Position numbers and translations under genes: made by a program
Notes under the pieces: generated by a model
What the model saw: the letters and a program-made list of their open reading frames with translations, nothing else
Databases searched by the model: none
What the model was told of the DNA's origin: nothing
Part shown: positions 1 to 64,000 of the stretch, piece by piece
Numbering within the stretch: the stretch's first letter is position 1
Layout: each line of letters begins with the position of its first letter
Assembly (NCBI GenBank): GCA_945859605.1
Contig: OX243824.1
Span: 29,814,448-29,878,447, forward strand
Length of the DNA stretch: 64,000 nucleotides
Direction: 5' to 3'
Source of the DNA: Lumbricus rubellus
Taxonomy: Eukaryota > Annelida > Clitellata > Crassiclitellata > Lumbricidae

Positions 1-458
1 CGACGGCTGGCACCACCACCAAGACCGAAGAAACGACGTCTTCGTCGACTGGTACACCGACCACCACAGAACAAACGACTGCTGTCTTTAGCACCACCAA
101 GACGGAAGAAACGACGTCTTCGTCGACTGGTACACCGACCGCCACAGAACAAACGACGGCTGGCACCACCACCAAGACCGAAGAAACGACGTCTTCGTCG
201 ACTGGTACACCGACCGCCACAGAACAAACGACGGCTGGCACCACCACCAAGACCAAAGAAATGACGTCTTCGTCGACTGGTACACCGACCACCACAGAAC
301 AAACGACTGCTGTCTTTAGCACCACCAAGACCGAAGAAACGACGTCTTTGTCGACTGGTACACCGACCGCCACAGAACAAACGACTGCTGTGTTTAGCAC
401 CACCAAGACCGAAGAAACGACGTCTTCGTCGACTGGTACACCGACCGCCACAGAACAA
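1..458 (+). repeat. Divergent 75/78-bp repeat units at the left edge of the array
   Basis: There are six units: 1-74 (missing one base at the edge), 75-152, 153-227, 228-302, 303-380 and 381-458. Two types occur. The 75-bp type begins TTAGTTTKTEE and the 78-bp type begins TTAVFSTTKTEE. Both continue TTSSSTGTPT and end in TEQ. Compared with the main unit they lack one Thr codon before SSS, have Glu-Glu where the main array has Asp-Glu, and have Gly where it has Ala. The 75-bp type also lacks one codon in the VIG segment. The unit at 228 carries Lys in place of the first Glu and an ATG at 261. All length differences are whole codons. They look like an older or separately evolving flank of the same array. 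Confidence 0.9.
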
Positions 459-3400
459 ACGACTGCTGTCTTTAGCACCACCAAGACCGAAGAAACGACT
501 ACATCTTCGTCGACTGCTACACCGACCGCCACAGAACAAACGACGTCTGTCCTTGGCACCACCAAGACCGACGAAACGACTACATCTTCGTCGACTGCTA
601 CACAAACCGCCACAGAACAAGCGACGTCTGTCATTGGCACCACCAAGACCGACGAAACGACTACATCTTCGTCGACTGCTACACCGACCGCCACAGAACA
701 AACGACGTCTGTCATTGGCACCACCAAGACCGACGAAACGACTACATCTTCGTCGACTGCTACACCGACTGCCACAGAACAAACGACGTCTGTCCTTAGC
801 GCCACCAAGAGCGACGAAACGACTACATCTTCGTCGACTGCTACACCGACCGCCACAGAACAAACGTCGTCGACTGCTACACCGACCGCTACAGAACAAA
901 CGACGTCTGTCATTGGCACCACCAAGACCGACGAAACGACTACATCTTCGTCGACTGCTAAACCGACCGCCACAGAACAAACGACGTCTGTCCTTGGCAC
1001 CACCATGACCGACGAAACGACTACAACTTGGTCGACTGCTACACCGACCGCCCCAGAACAAACGACATCTGTCACTGGCACCACCAAGACCGACGAAACG
1101 ACTACATCATCGTCGACTGCTACACCGACCGCCACAGAACAAACGACGTCTGTCCTTGGCACCACAAAGACCGACGAAACGACTACATCTTCGTCGACTG
1201 CTACACCGACCGCCACAGAACAAACGACGTCTGTCATTGGCACCACCAAGAACGACGAAACGACTACGTCTTCGTCGACTGCTACACCGACCACCACAGA
1301 ACAAACGACGTCTGTCCTTGACACCACCAAGACCGACGAAACGACTACATCTTCGTCGACTGCTACACCGACCGCCACAGAACAAACGACGTCTGTAAGT
1401 GGCACCACCAAGACCGACGAAACGACTACATCTTCGTCGACTGCTACACCGACCGCCACAGAACAAGCGACCTCTGTCCTTGATACCAACAAGACCGACG
1501 AAACGACTACATCTTCGTCGACTGCTACACCGACCGCCACAGAACAAACGACGTCTGTCACTAGCACCACCAAGACCGACGAAACGACTACGTCTTCGTC
1601 GACTGCTACACCGACCGCCACAGAACAAACGACGTCTGTCATTGGCACCACCAAGACCGACGAAACGACTACATCTTCGTCGACTCCTACACCGACCGCC
1701 ACAGAACAAACGACGTCTGTCATTGGCACCACCAAGACCGACGAAACGACTACGCCTTCGTCGACTGCTACACCGACCGCCCCAGAACAAACGACATCTG
1801 TCACTGGCACCACCAAGACCGACGAAACGACTACATCATCGTCGACTGCTACACCGACCGCCACAGAACAAACGACGTCTGTCCTTGGCACCACCAAGAC
1901 CGACGAAACGACTACATCTTCGTCGACTGCTACACCGACCGCCACAGAACAAACGACGTCTGTCATTGGCACCACCAAGACCGACGAAACGACTACATCT
2001 TCGTCGACTCCTACACCGACCGCCACAGAACAAACGACGTCTGTCATTGGCACCACCAAGACCGACGAAACGACTACGCCTTCGTCGACTGCTACACCGA
2101 CCGCCCCAGAACAAACGACATCTGTCACTGGCACCACCAAGACCGACGAAACGACTACATCATCGTCGACTGCTACACCGACCGCCACGGAACAAACGAC
2201 GTCTGTCCTTGGCACCACCAAGACCGACGAAACGACTACATCTTCGTCGACTGCTACACCGACCGCCACAGAACAAACGACGTCTGTCATTGGCACCACC
2301 AAGACCGACGAAACGACTACATCTTCGTCGACTGCTACACCGACCGCCACAGAACAAACGACGTCTGTCATTGGCACCACAAAGACCGACGAAACGACTA
2401 CATCTTCGTCGACTGCTACACCGACCGCCACAGAACAAACGACGTCTGTCCTCGACACCACCAAGACCGACGAAACGACTACATCTTCGTCGACTGCTAC
2501 ACCGACCGCCACAGAACAAACGACATTTGTCACTGGCACCACCAAGACCGACGAAACGACTACATCATCCTCGACTGCTACACCGGCCGCCACAGAACAA
2601 ACGACGTCTGTCCTTGGCACCACCAAGACCGACGAAACGACCACATCTTCGTCGACTGCTACACCGACCGCCATAGAACAAACGACGTCTGTCATTGGCA
2701 CCACCAAGACCGACGAAACGACTACATCTTCGTCGACTGCTACACCGACCACCACCGAACAAACGACGTCTGTCCTTGACACCACCAAGACCGACGAAAC
2801 GACTACATCTTCGTCGACTGCTACACCGACCGCCACAGAACAAACGACGTCTGTCATTGGCACCACCAAGACCGACGAAACGACTACATCTTCGTCGACT
2901 CCTACACCGACCGCCACAGAACAAACGACGTCTGTCATTGGCACCACCAAGACCGACGAAACGACTACGCCTTCGTCGACTGCTACACCGACCGCCCCAG
3001 AACAAACGACATCTGTCACTGGCACCACCAAGACCGACGAAACGACTACATCATCGTCGACTGCTACACCGACCGCCACGGAACAAACGACGTCTGTCCT
3101 TGGCACCACCAAGACCGACGAAACGACTACATCTTCGTCGACTGCTACACCGACCGCCACAGAACAAACGACGTCTGTCATTGGCACCACCAAGACCGAC
3201 GAAACGACTACATCTTCGTCGACTGCTACACCGACCGCCACAGAACAAACGACGTCTGTCATTGGCACCACAAAGACCGACGAAACGACTATATCTTCGT
3301 CGACTGCTACACCGACCGCCACAGAACAAACGACGTCTGTCCTCGACACCACCAAGACCGACGAAACGACTACATCTTCGTCGACTGCTACACCGACCGC

Positions 3401-6400
3401 CACAGAACAAACGACATCTGTCACTGGCACCACCAAGACCGACGAAACGACTACATCATCCTCGACTGCTACACCGACCGCCACAGAACAAACGACGTCT
3501 GTCCTTGGCACCACCAAGACCGACGAAACGACCACATCTTCGTCGACTGCTACACCGACCGCCATAGAACAAACGACGTCTGTCATTGGCACCACCAAGA
3601 CCGACGAAACGACTACATCTTCGTCGACTGCTACACCGACCACCACAGAACAAACGACGTCTGTCCTTGACACCACCAAGACCGACGAAGCGACTACATC
3701 TTCGTCGACTGCTACACCGACCGCCACAGAACAAACGACATCTGTCACTGGCACCACCAAGACCGACGAAACGACTACATCATCGTCGACTGCTACACCG
3801 ACCGCCACAGAACAAACGACGTCTGTCCTTGGCACCACCAAGACCGACGAAACGACTACATCTTCGTCGACTGCTACACCGACCGCCACAGAACAAACGA
3901 CGTCTGTCATTGGCACCACCAAGACCGACGAAACGACTGCATCTTCGTCGACTGCTACACCGACCGCCACAGAACAAACGACGTCTGTCATTGGCACCAC
4001 CAAGACCGACGAAACGACTACATCTTCGTCGACTGCTACACCGACCGCCACAGAACAAACGACGTCTGTCATTGGCACCACCAAGACCGACAAAACGACT
4101 ACATCTTCGTCGTCTGCTACAACGACCGCCACAGAAATATCGACGTCTTTCATTGGCACCACCAAGACCGACGAAACGACTACATCTTCGTCGACTGCTA
4201 CACCGACCGCCACAGAACAAACGACGTCTGTCATTGGCACCACCAAGACCGACGAAACGACTACATCTTCGTCGACTGCTACACCGACCGCTACAGAACA
4301 AACGACGTCTGTCATTGGCACCACCAAGACCGACGAAACGACTACATCTTCGTCGACTGCTAAACCGACCGCCACAGAACAAACGACGTCTGTCCTTGGC
4401 ACCACCATGACCGACGAAACGACTACATCTTCGTCGACTGCTACACCGACCGCCACTAAACAAGCGACGTCTGTCATTGGCACCACCAAGACCGACGAAA
4501 CGACTACATCTTCGTCGACTGCTACACCGACCACCACAGAACAAACGACGTCTGTCATTGGCACCACCAAGACCGACGAAACGACTACATCTTCGTCGAC
4601 TGCTACACCGACCGCCACAGAACAAACGACGTCTGTCCTTGACACCACCAAGACCGACGAAACGACTACATCTTCGTCGACTGCTACACCGACCGCCACA
4701 GAACAAACGACATCTGTCATTGGCACCACCAAGACCGACGAAACGACAACATCTTCGTCGACTGCTACACCGTCCGCCACAGAACAAACGACGTCTGTCA
4801 TTGGCACCACCAAGACCGACGAAACGACTACATCTTCGTCGACTGCTACACCGACCGCCACAGAACAAACGACGTCTGTCATTGGCACCACCAAGACCGA
4901 CGAAACGACTACATCTTCGTCGACTGCTACACCGACCGCCACAGAACAAGCGACCTCTGTCCTTGATACCAACAAGACCGACGAAACGACTACATCTTCG
5001 TCGACTGCTACACCGACCGCCACAGAACAAACGACGTCTGTCACTGGCACCACCAAGACCGACGAAACGACTACGTCTTCGTCGACTGCTACACCGACCG
5101 CCACAGAACAAACGACGTCTGTCATTGGCACCACCAAGACCGACGAAACGACTACATCTTCGTCGACTGCTACACCGACCGCCACAGAACAAACGACGTC
5201 TGTCCTTGACACCACCAAGACCGACGAAACGACTACATCGTCGTCGACTGCTACACCGACCGCCACAGAACAAACGACAACTGTCATTGGCACCACCAAG
5301 ACCGACGAAACGACAACATCCTCGTCGACTGCTACACCGTCCGCCACAGAACAAACGACGTCTGTCATTGGCACCACCAAGACCGACGAAACGACTACAT
5401 CTTCGTCGACTGCTACACCGACCGCCACAGAACAAACGACGTCTGTCATTGGCACCACCAAGACCGACGAAACGACTACATCTTCGTCGACTCCTACACC
5501 GACCGCCACAGAACAAACGACGTCTGTCATTGGCACCACCAAGACCGACGAAACGACTACATCTTCGTCGACTGCTACACCGACCGCCACAGAACAAACG
5601 ACGTCTGTCATTGGCACCACCAAGACCGACGAAACGACTACATCTTCGTCGACTGCTAAACCGACCGCCACAGAACAAACGACGTCTGTCCTTGGCACCA
5701 CCATGACCGACGAAACGACTACATCTTCGTCGACTGCTACACCGACCGCCACAGCACAAACGACGTCTGTCATTGGCACCACCAAGACCGACGAAACGAC
5801 TACATCTTCGTCGACTGCTACACCGACCACCACAGAACAAACGACGTCTGTCAGTGGCACCACCAAGACCGTCGAAACGACTACATCTTCGTCGACTGCT
5901 ACACCGACCGCCACAGAACAAACGACGTCTGTCATTGGCACCACCAAGACCGACGAAACGACTACATCTTCGTCGACTGCTACACCGACCGCCACAGAAC
6001 AAACGACGTCTGTCATTGGCACCACCAAGACCGACGAAACGACTACATCTTCGTCGACTGCTACACCGATCGCCACAGAACAAACGACGTCTGTCATTGG
6101 CACCACCAAGACCGACGAAACGACTACGTCTTCGTCGACTGCTACACCGACCACCACAGAACAAACGACGTCTGTCCTTGACACCACCAAGACCGACGAA
6201 ACGACTACATCTTCGTCGACTGCTACACCGACCGCCACAGAACAAACGACGTCTGTCATTGGCACCACCAAGACCGACGAAACGACTACATCTTCGTCGA
6301 CTGCTACACCGACCACCACAGAACAAACGACGTCTGTCAGTGGCACCACCAAGACCGACGAAACGACTACATCTTCGTCGACTGCTACACCGACCGCCAC

Positions 6401-9400
6401 AGAACAAGCGACGTCGGTCATTGGCACCACCAAGACCGACGAAACGACTACATCTTCGTCGACTGCTACACCGACCGCCACAGAACAAACGACGTCTGTC
6501 ATTGGCACCACCAAGAACGACGAAACGACTACGTCTTCGTCGACTGCTACACCGACCACCACAGAACAAACGACGTCTGTCCTTGACACCACCAAGACCG
6601 ACGAAACGACTACATCTTCGTCGACTGCTACACCGACCGCCACAGAACAAACGACGTCTGTCATTGGCACCACCAAGACCGACGAAACGACTACATCTTC
6701 GTCGACTGCTACACCGACCGCCACAGAACAAACGACGTCTGTCATTGGCACCACCAAGACCGACGAAACGACTACGCCTTCGTCGACTGCTACACCGACC
6801 GCCACAGAACAAACGACATCTGTCACTGGCACCACCAAGACCGACGAAACGACTACATCATCGTCGACTGCTACACCGACCGCCACAGAACAAACGACGT
6901 CTGTCCTTGGCACCACCAAGACCGACGAAACGACTACATCTTCGTCGAATGCTACACCGACCGCCACAGAACAAACGACGTCTGTCATTGGCACCACCAA
7001 GACCGACGAAACGACTACATCTTCGTCGACTGCTACACCGACCGCCACAGAACAAACGACGTCTGTCCTTGGCACCACCAAGACCGACGAAACGACTACA
7101 TCTTCGTCGACTGCTACACAGACCGCCACAGAACAAGCGACGTCTGTCATTGGCACCACCAAGACCGACGAAACGACTACATCTTCGTCGACTGCTACAC
7201 CGACCGCCACAGAACAAACGACGTCTGTCATTGGCACCACCAAGACCGACGAAACGACTACATCTTCGTCGACTGCTACACCGACTGCCACAGAACAAAC
7301 GACGTCTGTCCTTAGCGCCACCAAGAGCGACGAAACGACCACATCTTCGTCGACTGCTACACCGACCGCCACAGAACAAACGTCGTCGACTGCTACACCG
7401 ACCGCTACAGAACAAACGACGTCTGTCATTGGCACCACCAAGACCGACGAAACGACTACATCTTCGTCGACTGCTAAACCGACCGCCACAGAACAAACGA
7501 CGTCTGTCCTTGGCACCACCATGACCGACGAAACGACTACAACTTGGTCGACTGCTACACCGACCGCCCCAGAACAAACGACATCTGTCACTGGCACCAC
7601 CAAGACCGACGAAACGACTACATCATCGTCGACTGCTACACCGACCGCCACAGAACAAACGACGTCTGTCCTTGGCACCACAAAAACCGACGAAACGACT
7701 ACATCTTCGTCGACTGCTACACCGACCGCCACAGAACAAACGACGTCTGTCATTGGCACCACCAAGAACGACGAAACGACTACGTCTTCGTCGACTGCTA
7801 CACCGACCACCACAGAACAAACGACGCCTGTCCTTGACACCACCAAGACCGACGAAACGACTACATCTTCGTCGACTGCTACACCGACCGCCACAGAACA
7901 AACGACGTCTGTCATTGGCACCACCAAGACCGACGAAACGACTACATCTTCGTCGACTGCTACACCGACCACCACAGAACAAACGACGTCTGTCATTGGC
8001 ACCACCAAGACCGACGAAACGACTACATCTTCGTCGACTGCTACACCGACCGCCACAGAACAAGCGACCTCTGTCCTTGATACCAACAAGACCGACGAAA
8101 CGACTACATCTTCGTCGACTGCTACACCGACCGCCACAGAACAAACGACGTCTGTCACTAGCACCACCAAGACCGACGAAACGACTACGTCTTCGTCGAC
8201 TGCTACACCGACCGCCACAGAACAAACGACGTCTGTCATTGGCACCACCAAGACCAACGAAACGACTACATCTTCGTCGACTCCTACACCGACCGCCACA
8301 GAACAAACGACGTCTGTCATTGGCACCACCAAGACCGACGAAACGACTACGCCTTCGTCGACTGCTACACCGACCGCCCCAGAACAAACGACATCTGTCA
8401 CTGGCACCACCAAGACCGACGAAACGACTACATCATCGTCGACTGCTACACCGACCGCCACAGAACAAACGACGTCTGTCCTTGGCACCACCAAGACCGA
8501 CGAAACGACTACATCTTCGTCGACTGCTACACCGACCGCCACAGAACAAACGACGTCTGTCATTGGCACCACCAAGACCGACGAAACGACTACATCTTCG
8601 TCGACTCCTACACCGACCGCCACAGAACAAACGACGTCTGTCATTGGCACCACCAAGACCGACGAAACGACTACGCCTTCGTCGACTGCTACACCGACCG
8701 CCACAGAACAAACGACGTCTGTCATTGGCACCACAAAGACCGACGAAACGACTACATCTTCGTCGACTGCTACACCGACCGCCACAGAACAAACGACGTC
8801 TGTCATTGGCACCACCAAGACCGACGAAACGACTACATCTTCGTCGACTCCTACACCGACCGCCACAGAACAAACGACGTCTGTCATTGGCACCACCAAG
8901 ACCGACGAAACGACTACGCCTTCGTCGACTGCTACACCGACCGCCACAGAACAAACGACGTCTGTCATTGGCGCCACCAAGACCGACGAAACGACTACAT
9001 CTTCGTCGACTGCTACACCGACCGCCACAGAACAAACGACGTCTGTCATTGGCACCACCAAGACCGACGAAACGACTACATCTTCGTCGACTGCTACACC
9101 GACCACCACAGAACAAACGACGTCTGTCAGTGGCACCACCAAGACCGACGAAACGACTACATCTTCGTCGACTGCTACACCGACCGCCACAGAACAAGCG
9201 ACGTCGGTCATTGGCACCACCAAGACCGACGAAACGACTACATCATCGTCGACTGCTACACCGACCGCCACAGAACAAACGACGTCTGTCCTTAGCGCCA
9301 CCAAGAGCGACGAAACGACTACATCTTCGTCGACTGCTACACCGACCGCCACAGAACAAACGTCGTCGACTGCTACACCGACCGCTACAGAACAAACGAC

Positions 9401-12400
9401 GTCTGTCATTGGCACCACCAAGACCGACGAAACGACTACATCTTCGTCGACTGCTAAACCGACCGCCACAGAACAAACGACGTCTGTCCTTGGCACCACC
9501 ATGACCGACGAAACGACTACAACTTGGTCGACTGCTACACCGACCGCCCCAGAACAAACGACATCTGTCACTGGCACCCCCAAGACCGACGAAACGACTA
9601 CATCATCGTCGACTGCTACACCGACCGCCACAGAACAAACGACGTCTGTCCTTGGCACCACAAAGACCGACGAAACGACTACATCTTCGTCGACTGCTAC
9701 ACCGACCGCCACAGAACAAACGACGTCTGTCATTGGCACCACCAAGAACGACGAAACGACTACGTCTTCGTCGATTGCTACACCGACCACCACAGAACAA
9801 ACGACGTCTGTCCTTGACACCACCAAGACCGACGAAACGACTACATCTTCGTCGACTGCTACACCGACCGCCACAGAACAAACGACGTCTGTCATTGGCA
9901 CCACCAAGACCGACGAAACGACTACATCTTCGTCGACTGCTACACCGACCACCACAGAACAAACGACGTCTGTAAGTGGCACCACCAAGACCGACGAAAC
10001 GACTACATCTTCGTCGACTGCTACACCGACCGCCACAGAACAAGCGACCTCTGTCCTTGATACCAACAAGACCGACGAAACGACTACATCTTCGTCGACT
10101 GCTACACCGACCGCCACAGAACAAACGACGTCTGTCACTTGCACCACCAAGACCGACGAAACGACTACGTCTTCGTCGACTGCTACACCGACCGCCACAG
10201 AACAAACGACGTCTGTCATTGGCACCACCAAGACCGACGAAACGACTACATCTTCGTCGACTCCTACACCGACCGCCACAGAACAAACGACGTCTGTCAT
10301 TGGCACCACCAAGACCGACGAAACGACTACGCCTTCGTCGACTGCTACACCGACCGCCCCAGAACAAACGACATCTGTCACTGGCACCACCAAGACCGAC
10401 GAAACGACTACATCTTCGTCGACTGCTACACCGACCACCACAGAACAAACGACGTCTGTAAGTGGCACCACCAAGACCGACGAAACGACTACATCTTCGT
10501 CGACTGCTACACCGACCGCCACAGAACAAGCGACCTCTGTCCTTGATACCAACAAGACCGACGAAACGACTACATCTTCGTCGACTGCTACACCGACCGC
10601 CACAGAACAAACGACGTCTGTCACTTGCACCACCAAGACCGACGAAACGACTACGTCTTCGTCGACTGCTACACCGACCGCCACAGAACAAACGACGTCT
10701 GTCATTGGCACCACCAAGACCGACGAAACGACTACATCTTCGTCGACTGCTACACCGACCGCCACAGAACAAACGACGTCTGTCATTGGCACCACCAAGA
10801 CCGACGAAACGACTACGCCTTCGTCGACTGCTACACCGACCGCCCCAGAACAAACGACATCTGTCACTGGCACCACCAAGACCGACGAAACGACTACGCC
10901 TTCGTCGACTGCTACACCGACCGCCCCAGAACAAACGACATCTGTCACTGGCACCACCAAGACCGACGAAACGACTACATCATCGTCGACTGCTACACCG
11001 ACCGCCACGGAACAAACGACGTATGTCCTTGGCACCACCAAGACCGACGAAACGACTACATCTTCGTCGACTGCTACACCGACCGCCACAGAACAAACGA
11101 CGTCTGTCATTGGCACCACCAAGACCGACGAAACGACTACATCTTCGTCGACTGCTACACCGACCGCCACAGAACAAACGACGTCTGTCATTGGCACCAC
11201 AAAGACCGACGAAACGACTACATCTTCGTCGACTGCTACACCGACCGCCACAGAACAAACGACGTCTGTCCTCGACACCACCAAGACCGACGAAACGACT
11301 ACATCTTCGTCGACTGCTACACCGACCGCCACAGAACAAACGACATCTGTCACTGGCACCACCAAGACCGACGAAACGACTACATCATCCTCGACTGCTA
11401 CACCGACCGCCACAGAACAAACGACGTCTGTCCTTGGCACCACCAAGACCGACGAAACGACCACATCTTCGTCGACTGCTACACCGACCGCCATAGAACA
11501 AACGACGTCTGTCATTGGCACCACCAAGACCGACGAAACGACTACATCTTCGTCGACTGCTACACCGACCACCACAGAACAAACGACGTCTGTCCTTGAC
11601 ACCACCAGGACCGACGAAACGACTACATCTTCGTCGACTGCTACACCGACCGCCACAGAACAAACGACGTCTGTCATTGGCACCACCAAGACCGACGAAA
11701 CGACTACATCTTCGTCGACTCCTACACCGACCGCCACAGAACAAACGACGTCTGTCATTGGCACCACCAAGACCGACGAAACGACTACGCCTTCGTCGAC
11801 TGCTACACCGACCGCCCCAGAACAAACGACATCTGTCACTGGCACCACCAAGACCGACGAAACGACTACATCATCGTCGACTGCTACACCGACCGCCACG
11901 GAACAAACGACGTCTGTCCTTGGCACCACCAAGACCGACGAAACGACTACATCTTCGTCGACTGCTACACCGACCGCCACAGAACAAACGACGTCTGTCA
12001 TTGGCACCACCAAGACCGACGAAACGACTACGCCTTCGTCGACTGCTACACCGACCGCCCCAGAACAAACGACATCTGTCACTGGCACCACCAAGACCGA
12101 CGAAACGACTACATCATCGTCGACTGCTACACCGACCGCCACAGAACAAACGACGTCTGTCATTGGCACCACCAAGACCGACGAAACGACTACATCTTCG
12201 TCGACTGCTACACCGACCGCCACAGAACAAACGACGTCTGTCATTGGCACCACCAAGACCGACGAAACGACTACATCTTCGTCGACTCCTACACCGACCG
12301 CCACAGAACAAACGACGTCTGTCATTGGCACCACCAAGACCGACGAAACGACTACGCCTTCGTCGACTGCTACACCGACCGCCCCAGAACAAACGACATC

Positions 12401-54400: not shown

Positions 54401-57400
54401 CAAGACCGACGAAACGACTACATCTTCGTCGACTGCTACACCAACCGCCACAGAACAAACGACGTCTGTCATTGGCACCACCAAGACCGACGAAACGACT
54501 ACATCTTCGTCGACTGCTACACCGACCGCTACAGAACAAACGACGTCTGTCATTGGCACCACCAAGACCGACGAAACGACTACATCTTCGTCGACTGCTA
54601 AACCGACCGCCACAGAACAAACGACGTCTGTCCTTGGCACCACCATGACCGACGAAACGACTACATCTTCGTCGACTGCTACACCGACCGCCACAGAACA
54701 AGCGACGTCTGTCATTGGCATCACCAAAACCGACGAAACGACTACATCTTCGTCGACTGCTACACCGACCACCACAGAACAAACGACGTCTGTCAGTGGC
54801 ACCACCAAGACCGACGAAACGACTACATCTTCGTCGACTGCTACACCGACCGCCACAGAACAAACGACGTCTGTCATTGGCACCACCAAGACCGACGAAA
54901 CGACTACATCTTCGTCGACTGCTACACCGACCGCCACAGAACAAACGACGTCTGTCATTGGCACCACCAAGACCGACGAAACGACTACATCTTCGTCGAC
55001 TGCCACACCGATCGCCACAGAACAAACGACGTCTGTCATTGGCACCACCAAGACCGACGAAACGACTACGTCTTCGTCGACTGCTACACCGACCACCACA
55101 GAACAAACGACGTCTGTCCTTGGCACCACCAAGACCGACGAAACGACTACATCTTCGTCGACTGCTACACCGACCGCCACAGAACAAACGACGTCTGACA
55201 TTGGCACCACCAAGACCGACGAAACGACTACATCTTCGTCGACTGCTACACCGACCACCACAGAACAAACGACGTCTGTCAGTGGCACCACCAAGACCGA
55301 CGAAACGACTACATCTTCGTCGACTGCTACACCGACCGCCACAGAACAAGCGACCTCTGTCCTTGATACCAACAAGACCGACGAAACGACTACATCTTCG
55401 TCGACTGCTACACCGACCACCACAGAACAAACGACGTCTGTCAGTGGCACCACCAAGACCGACGAAACGACTACATCTTCGTCGACTGCTACACCGACCG
55501 CCACAGAACAAGCGACCTCTGTCCTTGATACCAACAAGACCGACGAAACGACTACATCTTCGTCGACTGCTACACCGACCGCCACAGAACAAACGACGTC
55601 TGTCATTGGCACCACCAAGACCGACGAAACGACTACATCTTCGTCGACTGCTACACCGACCGCCACAGAACAAACGACGTCTGTCAGTGGCACCACCAAG
55701 ACCGACGAAACGACTACATCTTCGTCGACTGCTACACCGACCGCCACAGAACAAGCGACCTCTGTCCTTGATACCAACAAGACCGACGAAACGACTACAT
55801 CTTCGTCGACTGCTACACCGACCACCACAGAACAAACGACGTCTGTCAGTGGCACCACCAAGACCGACGAAACGACTACATCTTCGTCGACTGCTACACC
55901 GACCGCCACAGAACAAGCGACCTCTGTCCTTGATACCAACAAGACCGACGAAACGACTACATCTTCGTCGACTGCTACACCGACCGCCACAGAACAAACG
56001 ACGTCTGTCATTGGCACCACCAAGACCGACGAAACGACTACATCTTCGTCAACTGCTACACCGACCGCCACAGAACAAACGACGTCTGTCATTGGCACCA
56101 CCAAGACCGACGAAACGACTACATCTTCGTCGACTGCTACACCGACCGCCACAGAACAAACGACGTCTGTCATTGGCACCACCAAGACCGACGAAACGAC
56201 TACATCTTCGTCGTCTGCTACAACGACCGCCACAGAAATATCGACGTCTGTCATTGGCACACCCAAGACCGACGAAACGACTACATCTTCGTCGACTGCT
56301 ACACCGACCGCCACAGAACAAACGACGTCTGTCATTGGCACCACCAAGACCGACGAAACGACTACATCTTCGTCGACTGCTACACCGACCGCTACAGAAC
56401 AAACGACGTCTGTCATTGGCACCACCAAGACCGACGAAACGACTACATCTTCGTCGACTGCTAAACCGACCGCCACAGAACAAACGACGTCTGTCCTTGG
56501 CACCACCATGACCGACGAAACGACTACATCTTCGTCGACTGCTACACCGACCGCCACAGCACAAACGACGTCTGTCATTGGCACCACCAAGACCGACGAA
56601 ACGACTACATCTTCGTCGACTGCTACACCGACCACCACAGAACAAACGACGTCTGTCAGTGGCACCACCAAGACCGTCGAAACGACTACATCTTCGTCGA
56701 CTGCTACACCGACCGCCACAGAACAAACGACGTCTGTCATTGGCACCACCAAGACCGACGAAACGACTACATCTTCGTCCACCGCTACACCGACCGCCAC
56801 AGAACAAACGACGTCTGTCATTGGCACCACCAAGACCGACGAAACGACTACATCTTCGTCGACTGCTACACCGACCGCCACAGAACAAACGACGTCTGTC
56901 ATTGGCACCACCAAGACCGACGAAACGACTACATCTTCGTCGACTGCTACACCGATCGCCACAGAACAAACGACGTCTGTCATTGGCACCACCAAGACCG
57001 ACGAATCGACTACGTCTTCGTCGACTGCTACACCGACCACCACAGAACAAACGACGTCTGTCTTTGACACCACCAAGACCGACGAAACGACTACATCTTC
57101 GTCGACTGCTACACCGACCGCCACAGAACAAACGACGTCTGTCATTGGCACCTTCAAGACCGACGAAACGACTACATCTTCGTCGACTGCTACACCGACC
57201 ACCACAGAACAAACGACGTCTGTCAGTGGCACCACCAAGACCGACGAAACGACTACATCTTCGTCGACTGCTACACCGACCGCCACAGAACAAGCGACGT
57301 CGGTCATTGGCACCACCAAGACCGACGAAACGACTACATCATCGTCGACTGCTACACCGACCGCCACAGAACAAACGACGTCTGTCCTTGACACCACTAA

Positions 57401-60400
57401 GACCGACGAAACGACTACATCTTCGGCGACTGCTACACCGACCGCCACAGAACAAACGACGTCTGTCACTGGCACCACCAAGACCGACGAAACGACTACG
57501 TCTTCGTCGACTGCTACACCGACCGCCACAGAACAAACGACATCTGTCCTTGATACCAACAAGACCGACGAAACGACTACATCTTCGTCGACTGCTACAC
57601 CGACCGCCACAGAACAAACGACGTCTGTCACTGGCACCACCAAGACCGACGAAACGACTACGTCTTCGTCGACTGCTACACCGACCGCCACAGAACAAAC
57701 GACGTCTGTCATTGGCACCACCAAGACCGACGAAACGACTACATCTTCGTCGACTGCTACACCGACCGCCACAGAACAAACGACGTCTGTCCTTGACACC
57801 ACCAAGACCGACGAAACGACTACATCTTCGTCGACTGCTACACCGACCGCCACAGAACAAACGACATCTGTCACTGGCACCACCAAGACCGACGAAACGA
57901 CTACATCTTCGTCGACTGCTACACCGACCGCCACAGAACAAACGACGTCTGTCATTGGCACCACCAAGACCGACGAAACGACTACATCTTCGTCGACTGC
58001 TACACCGACCGCCACAGAACAAACGACGTCTGTCATTGGCACCACCAAGACCGACGAAACGACTACGCCTTCGTCGACTGCTACACCGACCGCCCCAGAA
58101 CAAACGACATCTGTCACTGGCACCACCAAGACCGACGAAACGACTACATCATCGTCGACTGCTACACCGACCGCCACAGAACAAACGACGTCTGTCCTTG
58201 ACACCACCAAGACCGACGAAACGACTACATCTTCGTCGACTGCTACACCGACCGCCACAGAACAAACGACGTCTGTCATTGGCACCACCAAGACCGACGA
58301 AACGACTACATCTTCGTCGACTGCTACACCGACCACCACAGAACAAACGACGTCTGTCATTGGCACCACCAAGACCGACGAAACGACTACATCTTCGTCG
58401 ACTGCTACACCGACCGCCACAGAACAAGCGACCTCTGTCCTTGATACCAACAAGACCGACGAAACGACTACATCTTCGTCGACTGCTACACCGACCGCCA
58501 CAGAACAAACGACGTCTGTCAGTGGCACCACCAAGACCGACGAAACGACTACATCTTCGTCGTCTGCTACACCGACCGCCACAGAAATATCGACGTCTTT
58601 CATTGGCACCACCAAGACCGACGAAACGACTACATCTTCGTCGACTGCTACACCGACCGCCCCAGAACAAACGACGTCTGTCATTGGCACCACCAAGACC
58701 GACGAAACGACTACATCTTCGTCGACTGCTACACCGACCACCACAGAACAAACGACGTCTGTCAGTGGCACCACCAAGACCGACGAAACGACTACATCTT
58801 CGTCGACTGCTACACCGACCGCCACAGAACAAGCGACGTCGGTCATTGGCACCACCAAGACCGACGAAACGACTACATCATCGTCGACTGCTACACCGAC
58901 CGCCACAGAACAAACGACGTCTGTCCTTGACACCACCAAGACCGACCAAACGACTACATCTTCGGCGACTGCTACACCGACCGCCACAGAACAAACGACG
59001 TCTGTCATTGGCACCACCAAGACCGACGAAACGACTACATCTTCGTCGACTGCTACACCGACCACCACAGAACAAACGACGTCTGTCAGTGGCACCACCA
59101 AGACCGACGAAACGACTACATCTTCGTCGACGGCTACACCGACCGCCACAGAACAAACGACGTCTGTCCTTGACACCACCAAGACCGACGAAACGACTAC
59201 ATCTTCGTCGACTGCTACACCGACCGCCACAGAACAAACGACATCTGTCACTGGCACCACCAAGACCGACGAAACGACAACATCTTCGTCGACTGCTACA
59301 CCGACCGCCACAGAACAAACGACGTCTGTCATTGGCACCACCAAGACCGACGAAACGACTACATCTTCGTCGACTGCTACACCGACCGCCACAGAACAAA
59401 CGACGTCTGTCATTGGCACCACCAAGACCGACAAAACGACTACGCCTTCGTCGACTGCTACACCGACCGCCACAGAACAAACGACATCTGTCACTGGCAC
59501 CACCAAGACCGACGAAACGACTACATCATCGTCGACTGCTACACCGACCGCCACAGAACAAACGACGTCTGTCCTTGGCACCACCAAGACCGACGAAACG
59601 ACTACATCTTCGTCGAATGCTACACCGACCGCCACAGAACAAACGACGTCTGTCATTGGCACCACCAAGACCGACGAAACGACTAAGTCTTCGTCGACTG
59701 CTACACCGACCGCCACAGAACAAACTACGTCTGTCATTGGCACCACAAAGACCGACGAAACGACTACATCTTCGTCGACTGCTACACCGACCGCCACAGA
59801 ACAAACGACGTCTGTCCTCGACACCACGAAGACCGACGAAACGACTACATCATCCTCGACTGCTACACCGACCGCCACAGAACAAACGACGTCTGTCCTT
59901 GGCACCACCAAGACCGACGAAACGACCACATCTTCGTCGACTGCTACACCGACCGCCACAGAACAAACGACATCTGTCACTGGCACCACCAAGACCGACG
60001 AAACGACTACATCTTCGTCAACTGCTACACCGACCGCCACAGAACAAACGACGTCTGTCATTAGCACCACCAAGACCGACGAAACGACTACATCTTCGTC
60101 GACTGCTACACCGACCGCCACAGAACAAACGACGTCTGTCATTGGCACCACCAAGACCGACGAAACGACTACATCTTCGTCGTCTGCTACAACGACCGCC
60201 ACAGAAATATCGACGTCTTTCATTGGCACCACCAAGACCGACGAAACGACTACATCTTCGTCGACTGCTACACCGACCGCCACAGAACAAACGACGTCTG
60301 TCATTGGCACCACCAAGACCGACGAAACGACTACATCTTCGTCGACTGCTACACCGACCGCTACAGAACAAACGACGTCTGTCATTGGCACCACCAAGAC

Positions 60401-63400
60401 CGACGAAACGACTACATCTTCGTCGACTGCTAAACCGACCGCCACAGAACAAACGACGTCTGTCTTTGGCACCACCATGACCGACGAAACGACTACATCT
60501 TCGTCGACTGCTACACCGACCGCCACAGAACAAACGACGTCTGTCATTGGCACCACCAAGACCGACGAAACGACTACATCTTCGTCGACTGCTACAACGA
60601 CCACCACAGAACAAACGACGTCTGTCAGTGGCACCACCAAGACCGACGAAACGACTACATCTTCGTCGACTGCTACACCGACCGCCACAGAACAAACGAC
60701 GTCTGTCATTGGCACCACCAAGACCGACGAAACGACTACATCTTCGTCGACTGCTACACCGACCGCCACAGAACAAACGACGTCTGTCATTGGCACCACC
60801 AAGACCGACGAAACGACTACATCTTCGTCGACTGCCACACCGATCGCCACAGAACAAACGACGTCTGTCATTGGCACCACCAAGACCGACGAAACGACTA
60901 CGTCTTCGTCGACTGCTACACCGACCACCACAGAACAAACGACGTCTGTCCTTGACACCACCAAGACCGACGAAACGACTACATCTTCGTCGACTGCTAC
61001 ACCGACCGCCACAGAACAAACGACGTCTGTCATTGGCACCACCAAGACCGACGAAACGACTACATCTTCGTCGACTGCTACACCGACCACCACAGAACAA
61101 TCGACGTCTGTCATTGGCACCACCAAGACCGACGAAACGACTACATCTTCGTCGACTGCTACACCGACCGCCACAGAACAAGCGACCTCTGTCCTTGATA
61201 CCAACAAGACCGACGAAACGACTACATCTTCGTCGACTGCTACACCGACCGCCACAGAACAAACGACGTCTGTCAGTGGCACCACCAAGACCGACGAAAC
61301 GACTACATCTTCGTCGTCTGCTACAACGACCGCCACAGAAATATCGACGTCTTTCATTGGCACCACCAAGACCGACGAAACGACTACATCTTCGTCGACT
61401 GCTACACCGACCGCCACAGAACAAACGACGTCTGTCATTGGCACCACCAAGACCGACGAAACGACTACATCTTCGTCGACTGCTACACCGACCGCTACAG
61501 AACAAACGACGTCTGTCATTGGCACCACCAAGACCGACGAAACGACTACATCTTCGTCGACTGCTAAACCGACCGCCACAGAACAAACGACGTCTGTCCT
61601 TGGCACCACCATGACCGACGAAACGACTACATCTTCGTCGACTGCTACACCGACCGCCACAGAACAAGCGACGTCTGTCATTGGCATCACCAAGACCGAC
61701 GAAACGACTACATCTTCGTCGACTGCTACACCGACCACCACAGAACAAACGACGTCTGTCAGTGGCACCACCAAGACCGACAAAACGACTACATCTTCGT
61801 CGACTGCTACACCGACCGCCACAGAACAAACGACGTCTGTCATTGGCACCACCAAGACCGACGAAACGACTACATCTTCGTCGACTGCTACACCGACCGC
61901 CACAGAACAAACGACGTCTGTCATTGGCACCACCAAGACCGACGAAACGACTACATCTTCGTCGACTGCCACACCGATCGCCACAGAACAAACGACGTCT
62001 GTCATTGGCACCACCAAGACCGACGAAACGACTACGTCTTCGTCGACTGCTACACCGACCACCACAGAACAAACGACGTCTGTCCTTGGCACCACCAAGA
62101 CCGACGAAACGACTACATCTTCGTCGACTGCTACACCGACCGCCACAGAACAAACGACGTCTGACATTGGCACCACCAAGACCGACGAAACGACTACATC
62201 TTCGTCGACTGCTACACCGACCACCACAGAACAAACGACGTCTGTCAGTGGCACCACCAAGACCGACAAAACGACTACATCTTCGTCGACTGCTACACCG
62301 ACCGCCACAGAACAAGCGACCTCTGTCCTTGATACCAACAAGACCGACGAAACGACTACATCTTCGTCGACTGCTACACCGACCACCACAGAACAAACGA
62401 CGTCTGTCAGTGGCACCACCAAGACCGACGAAACGACTACATCTTCGTCGACTGCTACACCGACCGCCACAGAACAAGCGACCTCTGTCCTTGATACCAA
62501 CAAGACCGACGAAACGACTACATCTTCGTCGACTGCTACACCGACCGCCACAGAACAAACGACGTCTGTCATTGGCACCACCAAGACCGACGAAACGACT
62601 ACATCTTCGTCAACTGCTACACCGACCGCCACAGAACAAACGACGTCTGTCATTGGCACCACCAAGACCGACGAAACGACTACATCTTCGTCGACTGCTA
62701 CACCGACCGCCACAGAACAAACGACGTCTGTCATTGGCACCACCAAGACCGACGAAACGACTACATCTTCGTCGTCTGCTACAACGACCGCCACAGAAAT
62801 ATCGACGTCTGTCATTGGCACGCCCAAGACCGACGAAACGACTACATCTTCGTCGACTGCTACACCGACCGCCACAGAACAAACGACGTCTGTCATTGGC
62901 ACCACCAAGACCGACGAAACGACCACATCTTCGTCGACTGCTACACCGACCGCTACAGAACAAACGACGTCTGTCATTGGCACCACCATGACCGACGAAA
63001 CGACTACATCTTCGTCGACTGCTACACCGACCGCCACAGCACAAACGACGTCTGTCATTGGCACCACCAAGACCGACGAAACGACTACATCTTCGTCGAC
63101 TGCTACACCGACCACCACAGAACAAACGACGTCTGTCAGTGGCACCACCAAGACCGTCGAAACGACTACATCTTCGTCGACTGCTACACCGACCGCCACA
63201 GAACAAACGACGTCTGTCATTGGCACCACCAAGACCGACGAAACGACTACATCTTCGTCCACTGCTACACCGACCGCCACAGAACAAACAACGTCTGTCA
63301 TTGGCACCACCAAGACCGACGAAACGACTACATCTTCGTCGACTGCTACACCGACCGCCACAGAACAAACGACGTCTGTCATTGGCACCACCAAGACCGA

Positions 63401-64000
63401 CGAAACGACTACATCTTCGTCGACTGCTACACCGATCGCCACAGAACAAACGACGTCTGTCATTGGCACCACCAAGACCGACGAAACGACTACGTCTTCG
63501 TCGACTGCTACACCGACCACCACAGAACAAACGACGTCTGTCCTTGACACCACCAAGACCGACGAAACGACTACATCTTCGTCGACTGCTACACCGACCG
63601 CCACAGAACAAGCGACGTCTGTCATTGGCACCACCAAGACCGACGAAACGACTACATCTTCGTCGACTGCTACACCGACCACCACAGAACAAACGACGTC
63701 TGTCAGTGGCACCACCAAGACCGACGAAACGACTACATCTTCGTCGACTGCTACACCGACCGCCACAGAACAAGCGACGTCGGTCATTGGCACCACCAAG
63801 ACCGACGAAACGACTACATCATCGTCGACTGCTACACCGACCGCCACAGAACAAACGACGTCTGTCCTTGACACCACTAAGACCGACGAAACGACTACAT
63901 CTTCGGCGACTGCTACACCGACCGCCACAGAACAAACGACGTCTGTCACTGGCACCACCAAGACCGACGAAACGACTACGTCTTCGTCGACTGCTACACC
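1..64000 (+). CDS. Giant Thr/Ser-rich mucin-like tandem-repeat protein, internal fragment (both ends outside window)
   Basis: Seen: one frame (codons at 3-5 through 63996-63998) is open for 21,332 codons with no stop. The protein is a chain of 27-residue units, TTSVIGTTKTDE followed by TTTSSSTATPTATEQ. Each unit has 12 Thr, 4 Ser, 1 Pro, 1 Lys, 1 Asp and 2 Glu, so it is anionic and about 2.7 kDa. No start region, signal peptide, membrane segment, anchor or folded domain lies in the window. The in-frame ATGs (261, then 27 inside repeat units from 1005 to 62988) are repeat variants, not convincing starts. Known: Ser/Thr/Pro-rich tandem repeats of this type are usually extended, O-glycosylated stalks of secreted or surface proteins. 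Inferred: mucin-like extracellular role. Coding is supported because all length variants are multiples of three and none of roughly 4,700 near-stop codons has become a stop. Alternatives are a bacterial giant surface protein, or a satellite that is open by chance (less likely). I do not recognise a named gene. Confidence 0.85.
459..539 (+). repeat. Hybrid unit joining the divergent flank to the 81-bp array
   Basis: The first half (TTAVFSTTKTEE) is the 78-bp flank type. The second half (TTTSSSTATPTATEQ) is the main 81-bp type, including the extra Thr codon and Ala in place of Gly. This is the footprint expected from an in-register recombination between the two unit families, and it marks the left border of the homogenised array. 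Confidence 0.85.
864..899 (+). repeat. 36-bp mini-unit, copy 1
   Basis: Twelve codons reading TSSTATPTATEQ: a unit that has lost 15 codons between its first Thr and the SSS tract. It follows a unit with the unusual start SVLSATKSDE and lies 141 bp before the Met codon at 1005. Confidence 0.95.
2160..3779 (+). repeat. Nested tandem higher-order repeat: 11 units followed by a 9-unit copy
   Basis: The block at 2160-3050 (891 bp, 11 units) is followed by 3051-3779 (729 bp, 9 units) with the same order of variants. Both begin with a TCATCG unit carrying ACG GAA, then VIG units, a GTC CTC GAC unit and a TCATCCTCG unit. The second copy lacks two units near its end. The same 11 plus 9 arrangement recurs at 17010-17900 and 17901-18629, so the pair formed before the larger block was duplicated. 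Confidence 0.8.
7380..7415 (+). repeat. 36-bp mini-unit, copy 2
   Basis: Same 12-codon deletion form after an SVLSATKSDE unit, again 141 bp before an in-frame ATG (7521). The shared context shows common descent with the other copies. Confidence 0.95.
9360..9395 (+). repeat. 36-bp mini-unit, copy 3
   Basis: Same mini-unit after an SVLSATKSDE unit, 141 bp before the ATG at 9501. Confidence 0.95.
9976..10461 (+). repeat. Six-unit tandem duplication, left copy
   Basis: A 486-bp, six-unit block repeated directly at 10462-10947. Both copies carry the rare GTA AGT codons (9972 and 10458) and a rare Cys codon TGC (10140 and 10626), each pair exactly 486 bp apart. Confidence 0.85.
10462..10947 (+). 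repeat. Six-unit tandem duplication, right copy
   Basis: Direct repeat of the preceding 486 bp. It differs at a few codons, for example CCT replaced by GCT in the STPT unit near 10,749. Confidence 0.85.
10980..13300 (+). repeat. Higher-order block repeated at 15.6-17.9 kb, copy 1
   Basis: Variant order matches 15,633-17,900 at an offset of 4,572 bp (56 units plus one 36-bp mini-unit) for most of its length. The left end of the second copy is one unit shorter. Within the block an 18-unit sub-block (1,458 bp) is repeated from 10,980 to 12,438. An AGG codon (Arg for Lys) near 11,608 recurs near 13,066, 16,180 and 17,638. Confidence 0.7.
14256..14291 (+). repeat. 36-bp mini-unit, copy 4
   Basis: Same mini-unit and context, but with GCC rather than GCT as the Ala codon before ACA. 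This is a silent change that separates it from the other five copies. Confidence 0.95.
15633..17900 (+). repeat. Higher-order block repeated from 11.0-13.3 kb, copy 2
   Basis: Same unit order as 10,980-13,300. It overlaps the left part of the larger 16.7-24.3 kb block, showing that different duplication events used overlapping segments. Confidence 0.7.
16686..24303 (+). repeat. Higher-order block, copy 2 (about 7.6 kb)
   Basis: Same succession of variant units as 1.8-9.0 kb. It is longer mainly because of about five extra units between the KTVETT marker at 20802 and the mini-unit at 22716. Those extra units include a VLDTNKT unit and a VLD/VTG run that copy 1 lacks. Confidence 0.75.
22716..22751 (+). 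repeat. 36-bp mini-unit, copy 5
   Basis: Same mini-unit. Its upstream unit reads SVLSATKTDE, so the AGC (Ser) seen in the other five has the array-consensus ACC (Thr) here, suggesting local conversion toward consensus. Confidence 0.95.
26154..26189 (+). repeat. 36-bp mini-unit, copy 6 (last one seen)
   Basis: Same mini-unit after SVLSATKSDE, 141 bp before the ATG at 26295. The spacing of Met units from here to 62,988 is always an exact multiple of 81, so no further mini-unit exists between those points. Confidence 0.95.
27531..30968 (+). repeat. Higher-order block, copy 3 (partial, about 3.4 kb)
   Basis: Matches copy 2 at a constant offset of 9,630 bp, from 17,901 to about 21.3 kb. Shared landmarks are the Met units at 28968 and 30264 (16 units apart, as in copies 1 and 2) and the KTVETT unit at 30432. 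It carries private changes such as a Leu for Pro (ACA CTG ACC) near 29,250 and Gln for Glu (GAC CAA) near 30,597. Confidence 0.75.
31131..37610 (+). repeat. Macro-duplication, left copy (80 units, 6,480 bp)
   Basis: Followed immediately by its direct copy. Landmarks shared at an offset of 6,561 bp are the Met codons 32694/39255, 35367/41928 and 36501/43062, the GITKT unit at about 36,571/43,132 and the Asn-Lys-Thr sites 37227/43788 and 37389/43950. Left of 32,022 the offset is 6,480 bp because this copy has lost one unit there. Confidence 0.85.
32022..32102 (+). repeat. Hybrid unit at a one-unit (81-bp) loss
   Basis: This unit begins SVIGTT, like the unit at 38,502, but continues with the ACG AAG and TCATCCTCG signature of the next unit at 38,583. 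Relative to the right copy, two units have been fused into one. Confidence 0.8.
37206..37772 (+). repeat. Asn-Lys-Thr sequon cluster 1
   Basis: Four units with DTNKT have Asn codons at 37227, 37389, 37632 and 37713, interleaved mostly with SVSG units (partly a 162-bp two-unit period). Asn-X-Thr is the N-glycosylation sequon. Use of the sites is inferred only if the protein enters a eukaryotic secretory pathway. Confidence 0.7.
37611..37691 (+). repeat. Hybrid junction unit of the macro-duplication
   Basis: The left half is the ATSVLDTNKT type (as at 44,172, the corresponding point at the end of the right copy). The right half has ACT ACG TCT, as in the unit at 31,131 that begins the left copy. 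This is the expected product of unequal exchange in register within one unit. Confidence 0.75.
37611..44171 (+). repeat. Macro-duplication, right copy (81 units, 6,561 bp)
   Basis: Starts at a hybrid unit and runs in register with the left copy to about 44,171. The number of 81-bp units being 81 is a coincidence. A few differences from the left copy exist, such as CCG AAC ACA in place of CAG AAC AAA near 42,385. Confidence 0.85.
42900..49200 (+). repeat. Higher-order segment repeated at 54.5-60.8 kb, copy 1
   Basis: Matches the second copy at a constant offset of 11,583 bp (143 units). Private variants shared by both are a Phe codon TTC for Thr (45570 and 57153), GAA TCG ACT near 45,420 and 57,003, TCC ACC near 45,195 and 56,778, and ACG GCT near 47,547 and 59,130. 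Ends are approximate; the match stops inside the unit near 49,207. Confidence 0.85.
43767..44414 (+). repeat. Asn-Lys-Thr sequon cluster 2
   Basis: Asn codons at 43788, 43950, 44193 and 44355, spaced 162, 243 and 162 bp. The same spacing recurs 11,583 bp downstream. Confidence 0.7.
49300..51200 (+). repeat. KTVETT-containing block, related to 45.0, 56.6 and 62.8 kb
   Basis: The KTVETT marker at 49710 and the units after it match 45.0-46.6 kb (offset 4,617 bp) and 56.6-58.2 kb. The stretch before it, including a Met unit at 49542 not preceded by the usual TAKPT unit, matches the segment ending with the Met unit at 62988 (offset 13,446 bp, 166 units). Confidence 0.7.
54480..60790 (+). repeat. 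Higher-order segment repeated from 42.9-49.2 kb, copy 2
   Basis: Same order of about 78 units as copy 1, including the Met units at 54645, 56508 and 60477 (43062, 44925 and 48894 in copy 1). Differences include Asp for Val (TCT GAC) near 55,197, which copy 1 lacks but 37,051 and 62,161 share, indicating mixed ancestry. Confidence 0.85.
55350..55997 (+). repeat. Asn-Lys-Thr sequon cluster 3
   Basis: Asn codons at 55371, 55533, 55776 and 55938: the downstream copy of cluster 2, with identical spacing. Confidence 0.7.
62316..62558 (+). repeat. Asn-Lys-Thr sequon cluster 4 (short form)
   Basis: Only two DTNKT units (Asn at 62337 and 62499), against four at the matching places near 43.8 and 55.4 kb. 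This shows gain or loss of two-unit steps within an otherwise similar context. Confidence 0.7.
62750..64000 (+). repeat. Copy of the 49.3 kb block running off the right edge
   Basis: Repeats the order seen from about 49.3 kb: the EIS unit, the Met unit at 62988, the ATAQ unit near 63,039, the KTVETT unit at 63156 and a GCG (Ala) in the SSS tract near 63,905. The array clearly continues past the window. Confidence 0.75.

Follow-up and report, generated by a model that had tools for sequence, protein, structure and literature searches.

The DNA analysed here, called the window, comprises 64,000 nucleotides of the annelid Lumbricus rubellus (contig OX243824.1, here C17, positions 29,814,448 to 29,878,447, plus strand) in a genome of 787,420,884 bases and 368 contigs. 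It lies inside a single open frame of 113,553 codons that is very probably coding, and we propose, with a probability of roughly 0.6, that this frame belongs to the giant exon of a secreted, O-glycosylated polymer of about 11.4 megadaltons (MDa), cross-linked into a gel or glue, of which the window would encode about a fifth. An original prediction, made from the letters of the window, had described the whole of it as the interior of a single coding repeat, and the exon as an extreme one. Two results support that description: stop-making changes among the repeat units are absent (0 against 11.9 expected), and the ends of the exon look genic, with an acceptor-like site, a six-Cys module, Cys-bearing repeats, a unique tail and downstream exons.

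Counted from base 3 of the window, the plus strand gives 21,332 codons without a stop, as had been predicted. The nearest stop to the left lies at 29,768,556 and the frame closes on the right with a TGA at 30,109,218, so that it measures (30,109,218 - 29,768,559)/3 = 113,553 codons, or 340,659 bp. Beyond the window it continues for about 45.9 kb on the left and 230.8 kb on the right. No stop stands just outside the window on either side, as the original prediction requires, and its claim that the protein must exceed the fragment of about 2.1 MDa agrees with a frame 5.3 times as long as that fragment. We read 93,553 of the codons directly, 83,814 up to 30,020,000 and 9,739 from 30,080,001 to the TGA, and found 0 stops. 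Across the 60 kb between them (C17:30,020,001-30,080,000) the frame is taken from the open-frame column of the protein search and from the phase of the matches. All 24 of the DNA matches listed inside this stretch are in phase, and every protein match among those listed, out of 248 in total, falls in a single stop-free frame of 113,553 codons, 16 of them wholly within the stretch. In the left 251-kb block the other five frames contain 795, 127, 237, 11 and 7,414 stops and the plus frame none. The units have 25, 26 or 27 residues, more rarely 11, 12, 14 or 35, and the frame is kept in all of them; throughout the sequence read, length differences between units are whole codons.

At the left end, an acceptor-like site in phase 1, with a modest pyrimidine content (0.59), stands before C17:29,768,815. 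Taking the start from this site, the exon would run from C17:29768815 to the TGA and encode about 113,467 residues, or about 11.4 MDa at about 100.6 Da per residue. We did not count the frame ahead of the acceptor (C17:29768559-29768814) as coding; its antisense strand reads, by eye, like a fragment of a long interspersed nuclear element. The six-Cys module is followed by a linker, by about 36 kb of 25- and 26-residue units, of the same types as at the start of the window, and then by 27-residue units. The arrays read between this module and the Cys repeats hold only 8 Cys. At the right end, the Cys-bearing repeats are followed by one more Cys, about nine 27-residue units, a unique Ser/Thr-rich tail of 152 residues and the TGA. 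The features are as follows.

C17:29768559-30109220 (stop included), plus strand: giant open frame, of which window positions 1 to 64000 are the inside, there almost wholly 27-residue units with the consensus EQTTSVIGTTKTDETTTSSSTATPTAT.
C17:29,768,817-29,768,906, plus strand: six-Cys module, directly after the acceptor-like site.
Window positions 1 to 500 (borders approximate), plus strand: 25- and 26-residue units of the types EQTTAGTTTKTEETTSSSTGTPTAT and EQTTAVFSTTKTEETTSSSTGTPTAT; up to base 419 they show deletions of 3 nt relative to the 81-nt consensus.
Window positions 843 to 26180, plus strand: six 117-nt units with an extra in-frame partial unit of 36 nt (12 residues), near 843, 7314, 9339, 14190, 22695 and 26133.
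C17:30,104,160-30,107,880, plus strand: 27 copies of a 47- or 50-residue unit, one Cys each.
C17:30,113,992-30,114,114, plus strand: first downstream cysteine-module exon, entered in phase 1.
C17:30,117,822 to a stop ending at 30,118,171, plus strand: second downstream cysteine-module exon, entered in phase 1.

A search with the predicted join of the two downstream exons returned one protein, P0001, from a JGI contig of 1,165 nt. It spans the exon join, ends at the same stop and is identical at 113 of 124 residues, without the 3.7-kb intron. We take P0001 to be a transcript of a related organism because this intron is absent from it, a retrocopy being the alternative. P0001 agrees with this genome at each of its first 42 residues, and all 11 mismatches are confined to the Glu/Asn/Ser-rich end. 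P0001 also confirms the donor of the first downstream exon, which scores 5.9 bits. The giant exon may be spliced in phase 1 to these two exons, and the phase fits, or it may end at its own TGA; in the 4.8 kb between it and the pair no better first exon stood out.

The alternative that survives best accepts the array as coding and holds that the usual protein of the cell is much smaller, through a wrong assembly length, splicing inside the array or early transcript ends. We consider it unlikely. In its favour, the array length is taken here from the assembled sequence, and synthesis of the whole chain, at a translation rate of 5 residues per second, would take about 6 hours. Such arrays also vary widely in allele length, MUC12 ranging from 4,677 to 23,080 residues according to PMC13345508. 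However, the longest exact repeat within the 251 kb is only 2,150 nt, so that long reads could tell the units apart and place them. The window contains 22 pairs of recurring runs, each of 8 or more identical units and at many different spacings, but their surroundings differ. The frame is moreover kept over its full length, which parts never translated would not need.

The composition of the array points to a mucin-type polymer. Thr and Ser make up 58.5% of the 93,553 codons read and 12,629 of the 21,332 residues of the window (59.2%), in agreement with the 59% predicted, and it is this composition that speaks for O-glycosylation; Pro accounts for 876 residues of the window. The window fragment has a peptide mass of 2.14 MDa and a calculated isoelectric point (pI) of 4.05. 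Its 755 'EQ' anchors are spaced by 27 residues in 706 of 754 cases, and its units diverge from the consensus at 2.7% of sites (1,723 of 63,784). The prediction of one 27-residue repeat thus stands for most of the window, and has to be amended for the 25- and 26-residue units of the first 0.5 kb or so, for the six units with an additional 36 nt and, beyond the window, for the 25- and 26-residue units before it and the 47- and 50-residue units after it. A single Lys per unit and unit-length tryptic peptides had also been foreseen; we counted 796 Lys in 789 unit slices, and in-silico digestion of the window gave 705 tryptic pieces of 27 residues. Composition, acidity, arrays almost free of Cys and the Cys-bearing pieces at both ends fit such a polymer.

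Thr/Ser/Pro-rich tandem repeats, the mark of mucins, are found here, and their placement in one large exon is shared with MUC12 and also with MUC16 and MUC4. Human MUC12 has up to 23,080 residues and reportedly contains the largest human exon (PMC13345508). The giant frame is about five times as long as that longest allele. No sequence relative was found, nor a mucin end domain in the parts searched, and the six-Cys module and the Cys-bearing 47- and 50-residue repeat at its ends set it apart from mucins. The original prediction had placed the protein in the size class of the largest known proteins and named MUC16 and titin for comparison; that comparison understates the size. On the sequence, no family can be assigned by homology, and the protein would work like a giant-exon mucin.

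A second alternative is a giant secreted structural polymer that is no mucin, silk- or adhesive-like or phosphorylated, with most Thr and Ser free of O-glycosylation. It draws on the fact that glycosylation is argued from composition, on the pI of the fragment and on the existence of very long repetitive adhesive genes: the coding sequences of the spider glue proteins AgSp1 and AgSp2 measure 42,270 and 20,526 bp, and their repeats are probably O-glycosylated, according to PMC6553539. The giant frame is about eight times as long as the AgSp1 coding sequence. We judge this alternative improbable. About 59% Thr and Ser together with Pro, and few aromatic residues or Cys, is the usual make-up of a mucin domain, and Pfam gave no match to spidroin N- or C-terminal or other silk domains in the exon ends. 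The repeat motifs of AgSp1 and AgSp2 are rich in Gly and Pro, where 27-residue Thr/Ser units stand here.

Searches for domains and relatives were otherwise negative within their scope. Pfam detected no typical mucin end domain (von Willebrand D, SEA, cystine knot and similar) above cut-off in the exon ends, the first 800 residues of the window, or the plus frames of the 28.8 kb upstream and the 10 kb downstream. Pfam gave no match for 800 residues of each strand of the window and, above cut-off, nothing apart from transposon domains in the plus frames of the 10 kb downstream. Matches below cut-off to MGC-24 (E 2), betacoronavirus NSP3_N (E 0.029) and DUF2613 (E 0.19) in low-complexity pieces, and to DDHD (E 7.6), were set down to chance. 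The first cysteine module alone had PLAC (PF08686) as its sole Pfam match, at 14.3 bits against a cut-off of 26.4, and the two downstream modules had no PLAC match; the Cys spacing of the first module presumably resembles that of PLAC, of which it is not counted a member. This genome holds at least 10 PLAC domains above the Pfam cut-off (C2, C3, C5, C6, C8, C9, C16 and C20), none of them on C17. Against the Protein Data Bank (PDB) the downstream modules matched a CXXC zinc finger at E 0.21, and 600 residues of the window matched nothing. Exact DNA patterns of the repeat were not found in the viral and genome contig collections, and the 66 and 8 matches to peptide patterns there were not confirmed by tblastn. 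The first 3 kb of the window had no match among plasmids and phages, and two repeat queries against 5.8 billion proteins (7,988 and 7,991 candidates scored) gave no relative. The repeat peptides did not occur as text in papers, and literature searches found nothing like this array in print. Low-complexity sequence is hard for such searches and the collections may omit this or near genomes, so the absence of relatives is weakly supported.

Whether the frame is coding was tested on the units themselves. Because the consensus unit lacks stops in five of its six frames, the openness of the window is weak evidence of coding; shuffled units have 2.1 open frames on average, and at least five in 1.3% of cases. 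The 104 distinct variants of the window are spread near-evenly over the three codon positions and include 0 stop-making ones against 2.6 expected; a placement test gave P of about 0.04 for stops and 0.23 for the silent excess. The long array was more informative. In 216, 223 and 2,736 units of 25, 26 and 27 residues (3,175 in total), changes were inferred on minimum spanning trees of the distinct units, which number 49, 64 and 528. In the plus frame 521 inferred changes comprised 182 silent, 339 replacing and 0 stop-making ones, where these base changes would predict 169.4, 339.7 and 11.9, and so few stop-making changes arose in 0 of 3,000 simulations. In the other frames 24, 31, 12, 36 and 4 stop-making changes were observed against 24.4, 32.7, 20.5, 47.6 and 7.2 expected.

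For the replacement/silent ratios four settings were used, each with ten random trees. The plus frame gave 0.88 for all units, 0.94 for single-step edges, 0.81 for units occurring two or more times and 0.66 for those occurring three or more times, where the other frames gave 1.14, 1.14, 1.32, 1.22 and 0.80. In one setting the mean stop-making count of the plus frame was 1.0; changes are scored there on the consensus unit, and the codons read contain no stop codon. Gains of Thr or Ser exceeded expectation (38 against 26.8) and losses were no different from it (121 against 124.6). In the 47-residue units, silent variants numbered 13 (7.7 expected) and replacing ones 16 (20.9 expected). All P values are rough, since the changes on one tree depend on each other and their count is inflated by exchange between units. 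The plain reading is that frame breaks are not tolerated and that residues are weakly constrained.

A second, Val-rich antisense frame, read from base 64000, likewise runs through the 21,333 codons of the window without a stop; 11 stops interrupt it in the 251 kb of the wider array, where the plus frame has none. We hold it very improbable that the array is non-coding satellite DNA with a unit open in this frame by chance: the few stops of the consensus unit compared with shuffled ones, the near-neutral drift of residues and the open antisense frame speak for it, but the plus frame shows 0 stop-making changes where 11.9 were expected, all other frames contain stops over the wider array, the frame runs directly into a cysteine module at one end and into a different Cys repeat and a unique tail at the other, and replacements are scarcer among variants that have spread.

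Several observations weigh against the proposal of a giant mucin-like exon. The case for it is drawn from the DNA sequence. The window by itself cannot separate a coding array from a lucky satellite, and tests confined to it are too weak. Replacements over all units are scarcely below expectation (339 against 339.7), and because two antisense frames are likewise low in stop-making changes (12 against 20.5 and 36 against 47.6; P 0.02 and 0.03), the null model is only approximate. Pfam found nothing above cut-off in the exon ends. The phase-1 donors near the 3' end of the giant exon are weak, 4.4 bits at 30,109,006 and 2.9 bits at 30,109,207, the latter 11 bases before the TGA. A 5' exon, a start and a signal peptide were not established in the 28.8 kb upstream (C17:29740001-29768799), where a signal-peptide scan gave one poor candidate and Pfam, run on the three plus frames, gave only transposon domains above cut-off. 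Extension in both directions, which the original prediction had advised, thus reached the frame ends, the tail and the downstream exons and did not establish the start or signal peptide. As to a membrane anchor, the tail was read and no further search for one was made.

We propose that the giant mucin-like exon would be used as follows. In the order read, a cysteine module is followed by 25- and 26-residue Thr/Ser units, thousands of 27-residue units, 27 Cys-bearing units of 47 or 50 residues and a Ser/Thr-rich tail. Since unit runs recur and all unit lengths keep the frame, the array probably grows and shrinks by unequal exchange and slippage of whole units. The exon would be transcribed and translated whole, and its product would be secreted and heavily O-glycosylated on Thr and Ser. 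Dense O-glycosylation would make the chain extended and hydrated, with a length of about 28 micrometres at 0.25 nm per residue. Cross-links through the Cys-bearing repeats and modules may then yield a gel, mucus, coat or glue. Selection would guard the open frame, and hence length and composition, more than the exact residues.

Upstream of the exon, a P-element/THAP9-like transposon with THAP, TNP-like RNase H and GTP-binding domains lies on the plus strand at about 2681-4965 within C17:29750001-29760000. Short degenerate repeats around CGCGACACTTAATCC occupy about 6950-7730 within C17:29760001-29770000; they form one group per orientation, a few hundred bases apart, and are perhaps a non-autonomous mobile element. 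A 192-residue open frame on the plus strand (2971-3549 within C17:29760001-29770000) matches Antigen_Bd37 weakly, at 17.3 bits against a cut-off of 25. This match and two others in the upstream stretch, all below the Pfam cut-off, were regarded as chance.

Extreme single open frames are also known from Omnitrophota, where one protein has 85,804 residues; elsewhere, PKZILLA-1 has 45,212. A survey counts some Omnitrophota proteins among the largest reported to date (PMC11573180), and the giant open frame of V. archaeovorus encodes 39,678 residues (PMC10066038). According to the latter source these frames are bacterial, with transmembrane helices and few known domains, whereas the frame described here is a simple tandem array. 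At 113,553 codons, the present frame would exceed all of these. There is about an even chance that the protein is larger than any other encoded in a genome described to date, being a single chain of over 113,000 residues and about 11.4 MDa, encoded by an exon of about 340 kb, and a secreted gel or glue polymer tens of micrometres long whose frame is kept while most residues drift.

Most units should yield a 27-residue tryptic peptide (TDETTTSSSTATPTATEQTTSVIGTTK and variants), which makes the proposal directly testable. The array also offers a very large natural sample for telling constraint on the frame apart from constraint on residues, with stops missing and replacements nearly tolerated. 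If the protein is synthesised as a single chain, the upper bounds for the size of a protein, an exon and a coding mRNA would all move upwards, and the question would arise of how the mRNA, the ribosome and the secretory pathway cope with some 6 hours of translation.

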